DNA from: Saccharospirillum mangrovi
GTDB taxonomy: Bacteria; Pseudomonadota; Gammaproteobacteria; Pseudomonadales; Natronospirillaceae
NCBI RefSeq assembly: GCF_003367315.1
Contig: NZ_CP031415.1
Location: forward strand, 2,292,001-2,356,000
Direction: 5' to 3'
Length of the DNA: 64,000 bases
This document shows positions 55,450-61,415 of this stretch, piece by piece. Under the pieces are notes generated by a model that did no database searches, had not been told where the DNA came from, and saw only the letters and a list, made by a program, of their open reading frames with translations. A program made the translations under genes and the position numbers. Each line of letters opens with the position of its first letter. The stretch's first letter is position 1.

Positions 55450-56964
55450 ATGACGGCTATCAAGCAGGACGACCTCATTCAGAGCGTCGCCGATGCGCTC
55501 CAGTTTATTTCCTACTACCACCCGCAGGATTTTATCCAGGCCATCCACGCCGCTTACGAGCGTGAAGAGTCACAGGCCGCCAAAGACGCCATGGCGCAAA
55601 TTCTGCTCAACAGCCGCATGTGCGCCGAAGGCCACCGGCCCATCTGCCAGGACACCGGCATTGTTACCGTCTTCCTGAATATCGGCATGAACGTGCGCTT
55701 TGACGACGCCACCATGGGCGTTGAAGACATGGTCAACGAAGGCGTACGCCGCGCCTACACTCACCCGGACAACGTACTGCGCGCCTCCGTTCTGGCCGAT
55801 CCGGACGGCAAGCGCCAGAACACCAAAGACAACACCCCGGCGGTCATTCACACCCGCCTGGTACCGGGCGACACCCTCGAAGTGCACGTCGCAGCCAAAG
55901 GCGGCGGCAGTGAAGCCAAATCCAAATTCGCCATGCTGAACCCGTCCGATTCGATTCTGGACTGGGTATTGAAAGTCGTCCCGGAAATGGGCGCCGGCTG
56001 GTGCCCGCCGGGCATGCTCGGCATCGGCATCGGCGGTACCGCTGAAAAAGCCATGTTGATGGCGAAAGAATCGCTGCTCGAACCCATCGACATTAACGAA
56101 CTGAAAGCACGCGGCCCGCAAAACCGGGGTGAAGAGTTGCGCCTGGAAATCTTCGAAGGCGTCAACAAACTCGGCATCGGTGCCCAAGGCCTGGGCGGCC
56201 TGACCACGGTACTTGACGTGAAAGTGATGGAAGCGCCGACACACGCCGCCAACAAGCCGGTGGCGATCATCCCCAACTGCGCCGCCACCCGCCACACCCA
56301 CTTCACGCTCGACGGTTCCGGCGTTGCCAAACTGAAACACCCGCGTCTGGAAGACTGGCCCGACATCGTTTGGGACGCCGGCCCCACCGCCCGCCGCGTC
56401 AACCTCGATACGCTGACCAAAGAAGAGATGCTGGAATGGCAACCGGGCGACACCCTGCTGCTGAACGGCAAGATGTACACCGGCCGCGATGCCGCCCATA
56501 AACGCATGGTCGATATGATCAACAAGGGTGAAAAACTGCCGGTCGATTTCACCAACAAGATGATCTACTACGTTGGCCCGGTAGACCCGGTGCGCGACGA
56601 AGTCGTCGGCCCGGCCGGCCCGACCACCGCCACGCGCATGGATAAATTCACCGACACCGTGCTCGAACACACCGGCCTGATCGGCATGGTCGGCAAAGCC
56701 GAACGCGGCCCTATTGCCATTGAAGCCATCGCCAAGCACAAAGCCAGTTATTTGATGGCCGTTGGTGGCGCGGCGTATCTGGTGTCCAAAGCCATTCGCG
56801 ACGCCAAAGTGGTGGCGTTTGAAGACCTGGGTATGGAAGCCATTTACGAGTTCGACGTGGTCGATATGCCAGTCACTGTCGCCGTTGATACCGCCGGCAA
56901 TTCAGTACACAAAACCGGCCCGCAACAATGGGCGGCGAAAATACTGGCGAAAGAAGTGAGTTGA
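55450..56964 (+). CDS. fumA: Class I (iron-sulfur) fumarate hydratase
   Basis: Fumarase interconverts fumarate and malate in the TCA cycle using a [4Fe-4S] cluster. The 504-residue single-chain form has both lobes: the alpha part (residues 1-290) with GHRPICQDTGIV and GAGWCPPGMLGIGIGGTAEK, and the beta part (about 300-504) with the tartrate-dehydratase-like VVGPAGPTTATRMDKFTDTV. The cluster cysteines are expected in GHRPICQD, in IIPNCAATRH, and one in between. The gene is flanked downstream by a terminator held between inverted repeats. A separate class II fumarase may exist elsewhere. Confidence 0.95.
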   Translation: MTAIKQDDLIQSVADALQFISYYHPQDFIQAIHAAYEREESQAAKDAMAQILLNSRMCAEGHRPICQDTGIVTVFLNIGMNVRFDDATMGVEDMVNEGVRRAYTHPDNVLRASVLADPDGKRQNTKDNTPAVIHTRLVPGDTLEVHVAAKGGGSEAKSKFAMLNPSDSILDWVLKVVPEMGAGWCPPGMLGIGIGGTAEKAMLMAKESLLEPIDINELKARGPQNRGEELRLEIFEGVNKLGIGAQGLGGLTTVLDVKVMEAPTHAANKPVAIIPNCAATRHTHFTLDGSGVAKLKHPRLEDWPDIVWDAGPTARRVNLDTLTKEEMLEWQPGDTLLLNGKMYTGRDAAHKRMVDMINKGEKLPVDFTNKMIYYVGPVDPVRDEVVGPAGPTTATRMDKFTDTVLEHTGLIGMVGKAERGPIAIEAIAKHKASYLMAVGGAAYLVSKAIRDAKVVAFEDLGMEAIYEFDVVDMPVTVAVDTAGNSVHKTGPQQWAAKILAKEVS

Positions 56965-57093
56965 TTTAGACGCTCGACGGGAGACGCTGAATAGCGAAAA
57001 CCCTTCGCTTCTTGCGCAATTAAAAAGGGAGTTACCGTCAGGTAGCTCCCTTTTTCGTATCGGGCGTTCAGCGTCTTCCGTTAAGCGTCTCCC
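56965..57093. repeat. Terminator-bearing inverted-repeat element after fumA
   Basis: A 27-base left arm (56965-56991) and right arm (57067-57093) are inverted copies of each other with about 21 of 27 positions matching; each arm itself contains AGACGCT twice. Between them lie the small hairpin AGCGAA-AACCC-TTCGCT and a 15-bp terminator stem. The left arm starts right after the fumA stop. The structure looks like a small mobile-type or REP-like unit that has supplied the gene's terminator; other copies cannot be seen in this window. Confidence 0.55.
57022..57055. terminator. Terminator between fumA and the glycosyltransferase gene
   Basis: A 15-bp stem AAAAAGGGAGTTACC / GGTAGCTCCCTTTTT with one G-T wobble and a GTCA loop, T-rich on both strands, suits both converging genes. 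It lies inside the inverted-repeat element described at 56965-57093. Confidence 0.9.
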
Positions 57094-57101
57094 ACTGCGA
57101 C

Positions 57102-59369
57102 TCAGCTCTCCTTGGCCGACACTCTAACGCCCTTGCGTTCCGCTTCGCTCGCCAACACATGCGCATAAATTTCAGCGACATCGGCAGCAAACCGATCGAT
57201 GGCGAAGTCGCGTGCAAAACTCAGAGCCTGATCGGCCAAACGCTCACGCTCGTCATCGTTTTCCAGTAATTGCTGCACGCGTTCAACCCATTGGGTGCGG
57301 TCTTCGCGCGTTTTAAAACCGTTGAAGCCTTCGCGCACCACATCGTCGATACCGCTGGAACGCACCGCCACCACCGGCAAACGCGCGGCCATGGCTTCGA
57401 GGATCACCATGCCCTGGGTTTCCGATTTCGAGGCAAACAAAAACGCATCGCCGAGCTGGTAATAAACCGCCATGTCATCTGGCGGCACCGGGCCGACCAG
57501 ATGTACGCAGTCGCTCAAATTCTTATCGTCGATGCGTTGCTGCAAAGCCGCGCGTTCTTCGCCATCGCCAATCAACAAACACTTGAACGAACGCGCACTG
57601 CGGCGACGCAATTCCGCCAATGCATCGATCATAAAACCGATGTTTTTTTCTTTGCTCAGTCGCGACACCGACACAAACACACAATCGTCTGCGCTGATGT
57701 TCCATTGGTCGCGCAACTTTTCCATCGCCGCTTCATCGCGCTGCTGAAAACGTTCAAAATCGATACCGGTTGGCTGCACGTACAAATTCGTAGTCACGCC
57801 AATTACACGCAGATATTCCTCGGCCGATTGCGTTGGCACAATCACACCGGCGCAGCGATTGGCAAAACGCCGCACCAGGCTGTGCGAAATCCAGTTACGG
57901 AACAACGGCCCTGGCAGCGGCACGTAATGGGCGTAATGTTCCAACCGCGTGTGGTAGGTGTACACCGCTGGCACACGCAACGCCTTGGCCCATAACAGCC
58001 CAAACCAACCCAGCCAGAACGGATGGTGGATGTGCACCACCTCTGGTTTGAACGCCATCATCGCTTTGCGGGCACGCCGGGAAATGGGATTAGCCATGCG
58101 GAATTCACCGCCTTTGCCCAACGCCATCCAGGAACGCAACCGCACAATCTCTTCCGGGTTTTCATCCTTTTTCTGATCGCGGTAACTCGGTGAAACAATC
58201 ATCACCTTATGCCCCAGCGTCACCAGGCCGCGCCGCAATCGCTCAATGGAAATCGGCACGCCGCCGATAAAGGGCAAATAGTTATTGGTGACCATCAACA
58301 CACGCAGTGGCTTGTTGCGGAACGGCTCCACATCCAGATCGAAATTCGGGTAGTAATCGCGGTCAACAAAAAGACGGGTATAGAGCTTGATGGCAACCGC
58401 CATCAGGGCGAGTAACACCAACAGAAAATTCAACCGACCGACGTAAAACAGCGAGTGAATAAAGAGCCACAAACTTTCCAGCGTTTTCATCAGCTGGTTC
58501 TGGCCGATGTCCAACCGTTTCATATCGATGCTGACGTTGTCGCCATCCACGCTAACGCTGACGTAGTGGTAAAAACTGGTGTCGTTGTTCAGCACCAGAC
58601 CACCCGCGCCGCCAGTGGCGATATAGAGAATGCCTTTGTGTTCCTGGCGATCAAACAAATGCAGGTCGGACGAAAATACCGCTGTTACCTGATAACGACT
58701 GAACAGCGTCATTAAGTCTTGCCCGAAGGGGGTATCGACCAGATAGTCTTCGGCGAAATCCACCGGCGAGTCGAGTTCGGGTTTTAAGAAGGCGTCGCCC
58801 AAAAACACAAAGCGATGCTGCGGTTGCTCGTCCAGTAATTGTTGTTTCAGCCAATACAATTGAAAGTTGTAGGCGTCCGGGTCGGTGGTATCGAGAAAAA
58901 TAAACTGGCTGTTGCCGGCTTTGAACGAGTAAAAATACGGGCCGAAATGTTCGTAGAAATGAAACGACCCAAAGATGCTCGATTCGTTTTCGCCAACGGT
59001 TAACAGATACGGCATCTCAAGATGGCTGAGCGAGCGATACAGCGCCCGGTATTTATCTTCACCACCGCCGCTGACGGCGTTACCCGCCGAGACTAAAAAA
59101 TCCGTTTCATTCTGGTTGATGATCGGAATCATGGTGCGTTCAAACACCCCGACTGAGTTGTTGATATTACCGACCACGGTAAACGATAACTGGCTCTTAC
59201 CGGCGAGTTCCGACTGCACCCGTTCAATCTGATCGGCGTGTACGGCGGAAAAATCCTGTTCGAAATAAATCAGATAAATGCGATAGCCGACCAACGCCAG
59301 AATCAGCATAACGATGATGTAAAAAATGACCTTCAGCCGCCGCGGCGAAAACCAGCGTTTGAGCGTCAT
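57102..59369 (-). CDS. Membrane-anchored fusion of inactivated metallophosphoesterase-like domain and GT4 glycosyltransferase
   Basis: A 755-residue protein. One helix (14-34) anchors it; residues 60-285 follow the calcineurin-like phosphoesterase pattern, including FYSFKAGNSQFIFLDTTDPD, but metal-ligand positions are replaced: GNIN (67-70) for GDIH, AGNAV (95-99) for GD, GEN (126-128) for GNH, GD (191-192) for a His, and SDLH (234-237) for GHxH. A second helix (310-332) leads to a GT4 glycosyltransferase (355-740) with NYLPFIGGVPISIERLRRGL, LIGDGEERAAL and the acceptor-site SETQGMVILEAMA. Likely adds a sugar to a lipid or polysaccharide at the inner membrane. Its start overlaps the upstream UPF0104-type gene's stop by four bases. 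Confidence 0.85.
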   Translation of the reverse strand: MTLKRWFSPRRLKVIFYIIVMLILALVGYRIYLIYFEQDFSAVHADQIERVQSELAGKSQLSFTVVGNINNSVGVFERTMIPIINQNETDFLVSAGNAVSGGGEDKYRALYRSLSHLEMPYLLTVGENESSIFGSFHFYEHFGPYFYSFKAGNSQFIFLDTTDPDAYNFQLYWLKQQLLDEQPQHRFVFLGDAFLKPELDSPVDFAEDYLVDTPFGQDLMTLFSRYQVTAVFSSDLHLFDRQEHKGILYIATGGAGGLVLNNDTSFYHYVSVSVDGDNVSIDMKRLDIGQNQLMKTLESLWLFIHSLFYVGRLNFLLVLLALMAVAIKLYTRLFVDRDYYPNFDLDVEPFRNKPLRVLMVTNNYLPFIGGVPISIERLRRGLVTLGHKVMIVSPSYRDQKKDENPEEIVRLRSWMALGKGGEFRMANPISRRARKAMMAFKPEVVHIHHPFWLGWFGLLWAKALRVPAVYTYHTRLEHYAHYVPLPGPLFRNWISHSLVRRFANRCAGVIVPTQSAEEYLRVIGVTTNLYVQPTGIDFERFQQRDEAAMEKLRDQWNISADDCVFVSVSRLSKEKNIGFMIDALAELRRRSARSFKCLLIGDGEERAALQQRIDDKNLSDCVHLVGPVPPDDMAVYYQLGDAFLFASKSETQGMVILEAMAARLPVVAVRSSGIDDVVREGFNGFKTREDRTQWVERVQQLLENDDERERLADQALSFARDFAIDRFAADVAEIYAHVLASEAERKGVRVSAKES

Positions 59370-60445
59370 GGACGAACTCCGTCAGTCAATTCCCGGTGCG
59401 TAACAAAGAGGCCAATCAACAGACCCAGATAAATGGTCAAAACGCGCCAGCCCACGGTTACCAACACCAGATGGCTGACCGTCAACACATCGGAAAACAA
59501 GTGACCAAACACGCCTTCGGCAATGCCCGATGCGCCGGGCGTGGGCGAGAAATACATGATAAAGGTAGTGATGACCATGCGGCCGATCACCAGCCAGTAT
59601 TCCAGATCGTAACCCAGCGCCCACAGCAGCACCGCCGGGAACGAGAACAGCGATAACAGGAACAATGCCGTGAACAACCAGGACGCCAGAATGTCGCGCC
59701 AGCGACCGGAAAAATACTGTCCAAAACCCTGAGCAAAACGGCGCAATTCACGCACCAGCCGATACCGCCAACGGCGTTGCCGATGTGCGGAAATCAGCTG
59801 CACGGCCTGCAATAGTTTCAGTACCAACAACAGCGGCCGCGCCAACCAAGAGGGCCTTAATAACAGCACGGCGAAAAAGCTCAGATACAGAACCACGCAG
59901 ACGATCAATGTAGGAATTAACGACGATTGTTGTGCGGCGGCTTCGGCACCGGGCAACGTCAGCAACAACACCGGCGTGGCACCAAAAATAAACAACACCG
60001 CCAAAACGGTGCGAATGGTGGTGGCGGTCATGGCGGTGCCGATGGCGACGCCGTGTCGGCGTAAAAACCAGACCTGCGCAAAGCCACCACCGGTTGCCAA
60101 CGGCGTTACGTTGGATACAAAAATATTCAGGAACACCAGCCGCGCCATGGCCGACATTGGCACGCGCTCACCCAGGGCGCGCAAGGTAAACCAAAGCCGC
60201 AAACCATCGGCGCAAAAGTACACCAGCAACAGCAACGCATAACCCAACAGCGCCGCTGGCGATAACAAGCGACGGTCCCACTGCAACGCCTGGCCGGCCA
60301 ACTGGTGATAGACGGTGTAAACCCCCGCCAGGCTCAGCCCGACAAACAGCAAGGTGAACCACAGCAGGCGGCGATAATTGGGTGTGCCGCTAGTGTTGTT
60401 TGAGGCCATCGTGTTTGCGGCGGTAGTGGACGCCCGGTCGCTCAT
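59366..60445 (-). CDS. UPF0104/lysylphosphatidylglycerol-synthase-like membrane protein
   Basis: A 359-residue integral membrane protein with about eight helices, matching the flippase-like transmembrane domain family shared by MprF and AglD. Blocks such as LRLWFTLRALGERVPMSAMA, VFLNIFVSNVTPLATGGGFA and FLRRHGVAIGTAMTATTI are family hallmarks. ATG at 60445 has AGGGA upstream; the extension to 60532 has none. It is directly upstream of and overlaps the glycosyltransferase by four bases, so the pair probably makes and moves a glycosylated lipid or a precursor across the membrane. The direction and cargo are inferred. Confidence 0.85.
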   Translation of the reverse strand: MSDRASTTAANTMASNNTSGTPNYRRLLWFTLLFVGLSLAGVYTVYHQLAGQALQWDRRLLSPAALLGYALLLLVYFCADGLRLWFTLRALGERVPMSAMARLVFLNIFVSNVTPLATGGGFAQVWFLRRHGVAIGTAMTATTIRTVLAVLFIFGATPVLLLTLPGAEAAAQQSSLIPTLIVCVVLYLSFFAVLLLRPSWLARPLLLVLKLLQAVQLISAHRQRRWRYRLVRELRRFAQGFGQYFSGRWRDILASWLFTALFLLSLFSFPAVLLWALGYDLEYWLVIGRMVITTFIMYFSPTPGASGIAEGVFGHLFSDVLTVSHLVLVTVGWRVLTIYLGLLIGLFVTHRELTDGVRP

Positions 60446-60591
60446 ATCATTCCCTGGTTTGGCTGCGTTTTTTTTCACACAAAACTTTGCACACAAAAGA
60501 AAGCCCGGCATGCCGAAGCAAACCGGGCACAAGCAAAAGAGATGGGTCTGGCGCTGTTCGAATCAAGTCCGGGCGGAATAATGCCAAACGT

Positions 60592-61002
60592 TTACAGGCC
60601 GGTGTCGCCATCGTATTTGGGCAGTCCGTCGTCGTACGGGCCGGACCAGGATGGACGATCGGCGTAGAAAATATGCTCCACCGGTCGGGTATCCGGCTCG
60701 TCATCCAGAATGCCCAGCGCCAATCCGACGATGCCCGGACGTTCGTGATCGATAAACAACAGGGTCGAGCCACAGACGCGGCAGAAGGCGCGACTGGCGA
60801 TGTCCGACGAACGATACATCTGCACCAGGTCTTCGCCCTGTTCGTACACCAGATCATCGACCTTCACATTGATGTAGCTGCCGAACGCCGCACCGTGTTG
60901 TTTGCGACACATGGAGCAGTGGCAATGGCTGGCGGTATTGGGCTGCAAAACGGCGCGAATTTTTACGCCGCCGCATAAACAGGACGCGCGCGATTCGCTC
61001 AT
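60592..61002 (-). CDS. GFA/CENP-V domain protein (glutathione-dependent formaldehyde-activating family)
   Basis: A 136-residue zinc-binding protein. Zinc ligands appear as CLCGG (9-11), CHCSMC (27-32) and CRVCGS (about 74-79), the pattern of the GFA domain. The family includes S-hydroxymethyl-glutathione synthase and many proteins of unknown function; the formaldehyde role is not implied by sequence alone, as no formaldehyde dehydrogenase is linked. Its ATG overlaps the HIT gene's stop by four bases. Confidence 0.9.
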   Translation of the reverse strand: MSESRASCLCGGVKIRAVLQPNTASHCHCSMCRKQHGAAFGSYINVKVDDLVYEQGEDLVQMYRSSDIASRAFCRVCGSTLLFIDHERPGIVGLALGILDDEPDTRPVEHIFYADRPSWSGPYDDGLPKYDGDTGL

Positions 61003-61415
61003 AACGCAGCCTTAATTTTGTCGGCCAGTGTTTGCAGTTCGGCCGGGTCGGCCATCACGCTGCCGTGCGGTTTGCGCAGGTCGGCAATGGAACCAGGAAT
61101 GATGTGGAAATGGACGTGCGGCACGGTCTGGCCGGCGCCCTTACCATTCAACTGAAACAGCACAATGCCCGGTGCATCAAGTGCGCTTTTTACCGCCGCG
61201 GCGACTTTGCGCACGGTGCGCATCCAGGCGGCCGAAGCTTCGTCGGTTAATTCGAAAATGGTTTCGGCGGCCATTTTTGGAATCACCAGGGTGTGGCCTT
61301 CGGCCTGCGGCATGATGTCCATAAAGGCAAGTGTCTGGTCGTCTTCGTACACCTTGATGGCCGGGATGTCGCCACGCAGCATCTTGGCGAAAACATTGTC
61401 CGAGTCGTAGGCCAT
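60999..61415 (-). CDS. HIT family nucleotide hydrolase/transferase
   Basis: A 138-residue histidine-triad protein. HVHFHIIP (about residues 97-104) is the active triad, with the KMLRGDIPAIKVYEDD and DIMPQAEGHTLVIPK motifs of the HINT/HIT branch. Such proteins hydrolyse AMP-lysine or AMP-conjugates. ATG at 61415 with GGAG upstream; the longer frame to 61493 has no site. It is translationally coupled to the GFA gene and divergent from the PfkB gene. Confidence 0.93.
   Translation of the reverse strand: MAYDSDNVFAKMLRGDIPAIKVYEDDQTLAFMDIMPQAEGHTLVIPKMAAETIFELTDEASAAWMRTVRKVAAAVKSALDAPGIVLFQLNGKGAGQTVPHVHFHIIPGSIADLRKPHGSVMADPAELQTLADKIKAAL

Follow-up and report, generated by a model that had tools for sequence, protein, structure and literature searches.

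The window, a 64,000-nucleotide stretch covering positions 2292001-2356000 of the single-contig 3.69-Mb genome of Saccharospirillum mangrovi, encodes a protein in which a metallophosphoesterase (MPP)-like domain that has lost nearly all of its metal ligands is joined to a GT4 glycosyltransferase. In nearly all of 55 such fusions, the neighboring gene encodes either UPF0104 or VTT/DedA. These predicted lipid translocators are unrelated and appear from their distribution to have replaced each other, and we regard this pattern of partners as new. A lipid GT4 paired with a translocator is a known kind of arrangement; the dead-phosphatase domain is unusual, and the exchange of partners was unexpected. 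The fusion offers a clear, conserved bacterial pseudoenzyme joined to a defined enzyme. If UPF0104 and VTT have repeatedly taken each other's place, genetics points to a common function at this locus for two membrane families about which little is understood, probably the transfer of a glycolipid across the inner membrane, and the substrate of each family could then be tested directly in standard laboratory organisms.

The fusion gene and its locus

The fusion gene (57102..59369, minus strand) has an ATG start and encodes 755 amino acids in the order TM1, pseudo-MPP domain, TM2, and GT4 domain, an order supported by Pfam matches and by a full-length AlphaFold2 model (pLDDT, 71.7; pTM, 0.53). 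TM1, at approximately residues 13 to 36 (59262..59333, minus), is predicted from the model and from charge analysis; the hydrophobic stretch spans residues 6 to 38 and the model helix residues 9 to 36. TM2 is predicted at approximately residues 312 to 335 (58365..58436, minus), where the model has a helix of the same extent inside a long hydrophobic stretch (residues 300 to 336). The pseudo-MPP domain covers approximately residues 60 to 286 (58512..59192, minus) and is predicted from the model, fold matches, profile, and charge to be periplasmic, and the GT4 domain occupies residues 356 to 740 (57150..58304, minus). In the named genome collection, the closest record was that of Saccharospirillum sp. 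MSK14-1, with 85% identity between the two fusions.

The upstream neighbor, which shares 4 bp with the fusion gene, encodes a UPF0104/LPG_synthase_TM flippase-like protein of 359 amino acids (59366..60445, minus). This protein scored 104.6 bits with PF03706 (cut-off, 33.4) and 85.5 to 86.1 bits with TIGR00374 (cut-off, 43.2). Since its homologues are 352 to 358 amino acids long, the internal ATG at 60445 was preferred as the start over the TTG given for the ORF at 60532. A scan of positions 56950 to 61100 for sigma-70 promoters found none, where 2.2 were expected. By eye, an inverted repeat with flanking A and T runs was seen at 57021-57056, between the fusion gene and a convergent open reading frame (ORF) (55450-56964) that we take to be fumarate hydratase-like; the repeat is a possible terminator shared by the two and is absent from the output of the promoter scan.

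The distribution of charge was compared in 38 sequences. Mean K+R was 4.3 in residues 1 to 13, 0.8 and 0.03 on the flanks that face the domain, and 1.0 to 1.8 after TM2. Because the positive residues sit at the N terminus, TM1 and TM2 likely flank a periplasmic MPP domain and leave the glycosyltransferase inside. GT4 enzymes require a cytoplasmic sugar nucleotide. The initial annotation had suggested that the domain presents a phosphorylated lipid acceptor to the glycosyltransferase, a role made doubtful by this predicted topology, which separates the two across the membrane.

Survey of related fusions

Fusions were sought in overlapping sets of 22 family, 369 class, 398 phylum, 58 Halomonas-centered, and 390 order genomes, drawn from the phylum of the window, and in the named genome collection, which gave 15 loci, from close relatives only. 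In the phylum and order profile searches, the top 5 candidates per genome were scored. The 55 fusions analyzed here are the distinct ones read that exceed 700 amino acids and align from before residue 45 to beyond residue 690 of the window protein; remoter fusions would escape these limits, and close relatives are included, with 18 rows remaining below 70% identity. Flanks of approximately 1.5 to 10 kb were read, less at contig ends. Outside the 55 are G785, G792, and G798, which by coordinates also lie tail-to-tail with a VTT gene, a fragment at a contig end (G796), and three loci that were left out with the fusion in pieces (L030, L031, and L034). The last three are Halomonas/Vreelandella records with a broken fusion gene, reflecting assembly error or decay.

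In the order search, all 28 strong matches (E < 1e-120) lay in frames of 739 to 880 amino acids, and the next match had an E value of 1.8e-10. The class and phylum searches showed a like gap, with 7 strong matches each in frames of 745 to 794 and 748 to 880 amino acids. Since the strong matches all lie in long frames, the domain was met as a fusion in these searches, except for the G796 fragment and the three broken copies. Carriers with a name fall in the salt-dwelling genera Halomonas, Vreelandella, Saccharospirillum, and Wenzhouxiangella.

Predicted fold of the N-terminal domain

PF00149 (Metallophos) scored 18.4 bits with the whole protein and 20.5 bits with its first 310 amino acids, below the curated cut-off of 21.5. 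A PDB search with the single domain sequence gave no match, so a profile was needed for detection; a profile of 19 homologues matched purple acid phosphatases (E = 8e-7) over profile positions 140 to 242 only. Weak QacR and PsbW rows in the same profile search were taken as chance. Residues 40 to 300 were modeled by AlphaFold2 with a pLDDT of 72.6 and a pTM of 0.79, the weak stretches (pLDDT < 50) including protein residues 127 to 144, which take in part of motif III. With this model, Foldseek matched GpdQ (E = 1.1e-9; TMq, 0.67), and VIA aligned 216 residues of GpdQ with a Z score of 19.9 and an rmsd of 3.2; PfGAP50, pig purple acid phosphatase, and Rv0805 tied in VIA at a Z score of 19.4. 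By its modeled fold, the N-terminal domain belongs to the metallophosphoesterase superfamily. The initial annotation had recognized this layout from the letters, and the FYSF, FIFLDT, and late-sheet blocks that it cited are present.

Loss of metal ligands and conservation of their replacements

The canonical Asp and His of motif I, the Asp of motif II, and the Asn of motif III are absent from all 55 fusions, and the fused domain lacks the signature of active metallophosphoesterases (D-x-H, GD, GN[H], H, GHxH). The motif IV His occurs at column 191 in 0/55 and at column 192 in 25/55, while the first His of GHxH is found in none and the second (column 237) in 6. When seven metal ligands are counted, a tally that does not include the motif III His (column 128; kept in 17/55), none remain in 28 rows, a single one in 23, and two, the maximum, in 4. 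The window protein retains H237, the second His of GHxH, as its sole ligand, and locus L093 holds H128, H192, and H237 at once. The relic histidines at columns 192, 128, and 237 fit descent from a live enzyme. Ligand losses recur in ten family codes (f1, f4, f6, f109, f161, f184, f185, f275, f288, and f291). In contrast, a G[N/E]H[D/E] motif is present somewhere in the ORF in 18 of the 20 MPP-like ORFs that were profile-matched in the 27 loci scanned.

The residues that replace the ligands are themselves conserved. The motif I G-D-x-H is replaced by G67-N-I-N-N-S72 (59154..59171, minus), with N68 in 54/55 fusions, N70 in 51/55, and N71 and S72 in all 55. Where other MPPs have the GD of motif II, the window protein has S94-A-G-N-A98 (59076..59090, minus), with N97 invariant (55/55). 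Motif III, GNH[DE] in MPPs, is G126-E-N-E129 (58983..58994, minus); E129 is present in 55/55, and positions 127 and 128 are variable. The GHxH of motif V is replaced by S233-S-D-L-H237 (58659..58673, minus), in which S233 is invariant (55/55) and H237 is the relic described above. Among 18 representatives below 70% identity, conservation was 0.91 for 13 positions of motif loops I to III, which were picked after the alignment was seen, versus 0.62 for the domain, and 0/10000 random position sets matched the conservation of these loops. Conservation is loose in motifs IV and V, except for F189, F232, and S233, so the claim of a pocket is made from motifs I to III.

By the NG86 method, omega was 0.026 to 0.15 for the domain versus 0.033 to 0.22 for the glycosyltransferase and was lower in the domain in each of the 4 usable pairs, with dS close to 1.4 or higher in some pairs; the window protein and L020 were excluded as a pair because dS for their MPP domains was unusable. 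The domain evolves under purifying selection. Decay toward a pseudogene was considered and dropped because omega is low. Judged by these sequence comparisons, the fused domain is a real, selected pseudoenzyme. These data agree with the initial annotation, which had proposed a pseudoenzyme that keeps its scaffold and has at least five substituted ligand positions, without mention of H237. It had also asked whether family members with the same fusion share the substitutions. They do, the motif I to III replacements being among the most conserved residues of the domain, and fusions with intact ligands, looked for as the counterexample, numbered none of the 55.

The glycosyltransferase half

The C-terminal domain was assigned to GT4 by PF00534 (126 bits) and PF13439 (108 bits). 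E650 and E658, which we take to be the EX7E glutamates of GT4, and H473 are invariant in all 55 fusions; K573 varies, with K in 29/55. In the full-length model, this part resembles MshA, BshA, and PimB'. The C-terminal half is a member of GT4, with the GT-B fold and the EX7E motif. The nearest curated family was NF049988, alpha-monoglucosyldiacylglycerol synthase (217.8 bits over residues 356 to 742; cut-off, 400), followed by NF053787, GlcNAc-PG synthase (128.1 bits; equivalog cut-off, 480). The two best curated glycosyltransferase models are thus both lipid glycosyltransferases, with scores far below both cut-offs. The best reading of the fusion is a diacylglycerol-type glycosyltransferase, its chemistry being presumed from these models.

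The neighboring gene usually encodes UPF0104 or VTT/DedA

In 26/55 fusions, UPF0104 is encoded immediately upstream, on the same strand, and 15 of these 26 show a 4-bp overlap by the longest ORF. A VTT/DedA-type protein is encoded next to the fusion on the opposite strand in 26/55, of which 22 were read and 4 (L050, L069, L073, and L074) were assigned, as tail-to-tail, by coordinates; the arrangement is tail-to-tail in 21 and head-to-head in 5. Because the VTT gene is on the opposite strand, this half of the set has no shared operon. The coupling to UPF0104 noted in the initial annotation is real, but UPF0104 is not obligatory, with VTT in its place in as many fusions. Four adjacent VTT partners were tested and scored 81 to 93 bits with PF09335 (cut-off, 33.9).

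No locus among the 55 has both partners, and 3 have neither nearby: L032, which is a MAG contig; L078, with a VTT orthologue (51% identity) at another site in its genome; and the deep-branching L090, for which the genome gave no match to UPF0104 or VTT at an E value of ≤0.001. When whole genomes were searched, 10/10 of the UPF0104 type had only remote VTT matches (≤37% identity), and 12/12 of the VTT type had no UPF0104 match above 23%; in one of these 12, G790, the VTT gene is unlinked. In the 37 genomes of genus code g14, which we infer from near-identity to named loci to be Halomonas/Vreelandella, a VTT gene at an E value of ≤1e-30 was present in 21/21 genomes with the fusion and 2/16 without it (Fisher P = 2e-8, relatedness ignored).

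Some glycosyltransferases without the MPP domain also adjoin a VTT gene. In G794 (L095:4704-6916), at a locus judged by eye to be syntenic with the fusion locus, a 489-amino-acid GT4 protein without an MPP domain (35% identity) lies tail-to-tail with a VTT gene, so the domain is not required for the pairing. In G789, which with G794 makes up the two g14 genomes that carry the VTT gene but no fusion, the VTT ORF (227 amino acids) is apparently whole, with no GT4 relative within the 13 kb read. Because of these two exceptions, the pseudo-MPP domain seems to have been added to a core made up of GT4 and translocator. The G794 protein belongs to a widespread L095-type GT4 subfamily, and neither VTT nor UPF0104 was matched in 8 short loci of that subfamily (L103 to L110), so a general pairing across it is not established.

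Probable partner exchange on the tree of fusions

On a quick tree of the 55 fusions, the UPF0104/VTT label takes 2 changes. The head-to-head VTT clade groups with the UPF0104-linked L151 and L152 (SH-aLRT, 100), with long-branch warnings for L151 with L152 and for L090 with L088. Forcing the VTT-linked rows to be monophyletic cost 95.5 log units (AU P = 1.1e-6) in a test with 41 rows on a quick tree, from which L090 and 13 close relatives had been removed, in which the partnerless L032 and L078 were placed in the VTT group, and for which that group was defined once the first tree had been seen. Because the VTT-linked fusions are not one clade, the partner has probably been swapped twice. The genus of the window is itself mixed, with UPF0104 in G000, G016, and G017 and VTT in G015 and G018; no fusion was found in G019 of the same genus.

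A model for the module and its alternatives

We propose that the cytoplasmic GT4 would add a hexose to an inner-leaflet lipid of the inner membrane, either diacylglycerol or one related to it. Its product would then be moved to the outer leaflet by the partner, which is UPF0104 here and of the VTT/DedA type in Halomonas and others. On the periplasmic side, the pseudo-MPP domain, with its conserved Asn/Ser/Glu pocket at the old metal site, would bind the headgroup of the product or the translocator and thereby couple synthesis to export. To this explanation as a whole, of lipid glycosyltransferase, translocator, and coupling pseudo-MPP, we assign a probability of roughly 0.55; the coupling role, taken on its own, is tentative. 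A glycolipid module is also what the initial annotation had in mind, and we grade it the most likely setting. A sharper version, which we consider possible but doubtful, is that the former metal site (Asn68, Asn70, Asn71, Ser72, Ser94, Asn97, and Glu129) is a periplasmic receptor that reads the sugar headgroup of a lipid made across the membrane and hands that lipid on with either of two unrelated translocators, swapped at least twice.

The conserved polar pocket could instead belong to a periplasmic sensor, in which a small ligand (a phosphate ester, glycerophosphodiester, or sugar) regulates the glycosyltransferase via TM2 and so tunes the glycolipid to salt or phosphate. The single predicted transmembrane segment that joins the domain to the glycosyltransferase and the salt-dwelling habit of the named carriers are consistent with this, as are the closest folds, since GpdQ and purple acid phosphatases bind phosphate esters. 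However, a crude consensus scan of 15 upstream regions found no Pho box above background (best match, 10/14, compared with 9 to 10 in 20 mononucleotide shuffles of the upstream region from the window alone; the 15 regions together are longer), and we consider a sensor unlikely. PfGAP50, which is among the closest folds (Z score, 19.4) and serves as a membrane anchor (PMC8949495, from part of the text), would be a precedent for a mere anchor or dimerization scaffold, and the syntenic G794 locus does without the domain; this role leaves the conservation of the former active-site loops I to III unexplained, and we judge it quite unlikely.

It is likewise improbable that the GT4 acts on polyprenyl phosphate or a periplasmic glycan precursor, with the partner as a flippase of the undecaprenyl-phosphate (UndP) type and the module serving a polymer. 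One DedA subfamily consists of putative UndP flippases (PMC10127716, in the portion consulted), the two VTT partners tested gave weak UptA matches (approximately 22 bits; cut-off, 250), and an ORF of L088 (362-1477) looks glycosyltransferase-like by eye, but the two best models for the fused enzyme are those of lipid glycosyltransferases. Residual catalysis without the usual metals, through the motif IV His at column 192, the motif III His, and E129, would draw on the frequency of H192 and H128 and on the three histidines of L093; with at most two of seven metal ligands in any row, none in 28, and one in the window protein, we consider it very improbable.

Comparison with known systems

The gpgSDF genes of Pseudomonas aeruginosa direct GlcN-PG synthesis and are a partly tested precedent for the fusion locus in that GT4 and UPF0104 genes lie in one predicted operon and a membrane lipid is modified; the flippase role itself is unproven (PMC12713373, according to the sections used here). 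Unlike the fusion locus, gpgSDF includes a deacetylase gene, gpgD, and those sections report no fused phosphatase-fold domain (PMC12713373). Against the GlcN-PG models, the fusion glycosyltransferase scored 128 bits (cut-off, 480) and the window UPF0104 protein 25 bits (NF053789; cut-off, 320). The MGlcDAG synthase family, NF049988, is like the glycosyltransferase half; its model is 398 positions long and has no counterpart of the N-terminal half.

PlcP is a metallophosphoesterase, and a PlcP-Agt fusion with a live PlcP was considered and dropped because the ligands are absent from the fused domain. In PlcP-Agt lipid remodeling, the phospholipase PlcP is paired with diacylglycerol glycosyltransferases as an active, separate hydrolase that supplies diacylglycerol (PMC8528852, as far as the excerpt describes), whereas the MPP domain here is dead, fused, and predicted to be periplasmic. 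PfGAP50 (3tgh) shares the purple acid phosphatase fold with the pseudo-MPP domain and is membrane-anchoring; unlike the fusion, it comes from Plasmodium, has no glycosyltransferase, and has reported acid phosphatase activity (PMC8949495, same portion). In eukaryotes, DedA/VTT relatives act as phospholipid scramblases, and certain bacterial members are putative UndP flippases (PMC10127716, same portion); the same domain occurs in the partner of 26/55 fusions.

In the literature searched, no report was found of DedA/VTT paired with a glycolipid GT4 of the fusion kind, and nothing useful was found on glycolipids of Halomonas or Saccharospirillum; nor was an MPP-GT4 fusion described in the one open-access collection to which the search was confined. 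Nearest to the VTT pairing is yngABC of Bacillus subtilis, which combines the DedA protein YngC with the UDP-glucose-forming YngB (PMC7961091, in the part drawn upon).

Other gene arrangements

Several loci showed further arrangements. Beside the partnerless fusion of L090, an ORF (L090:5728-6489, read as L013:3799-4560) has a DUF374 domain match of 27.6 bits. GT4 relatives without an MPP domain lie beside a VTT-like ORF at L100:4796-11496 (G016), L101:2114-9029 (G006), and L102:5420-9841 (G007), the VTT match being below the cut-off for L102 and resting on a genome-wide VTT search for L100. G016, of the window genus, carries the fusion too, and G006 and G007 are from the same family. All three relatives also adjoin an ORF of 747 to 813 amino acids, with no Pfam match in L101 and L102, and L100 and L101 have in addition an ORF of 800 to 835 amino acids, which in L101 contains Exo_endo_phos and phosphodiesterase domains. 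In the Halomonas-like G801 (L079:2651-14531), the pair of VTT gene and fusion occurs twice, approximately 8.9 kb apart.
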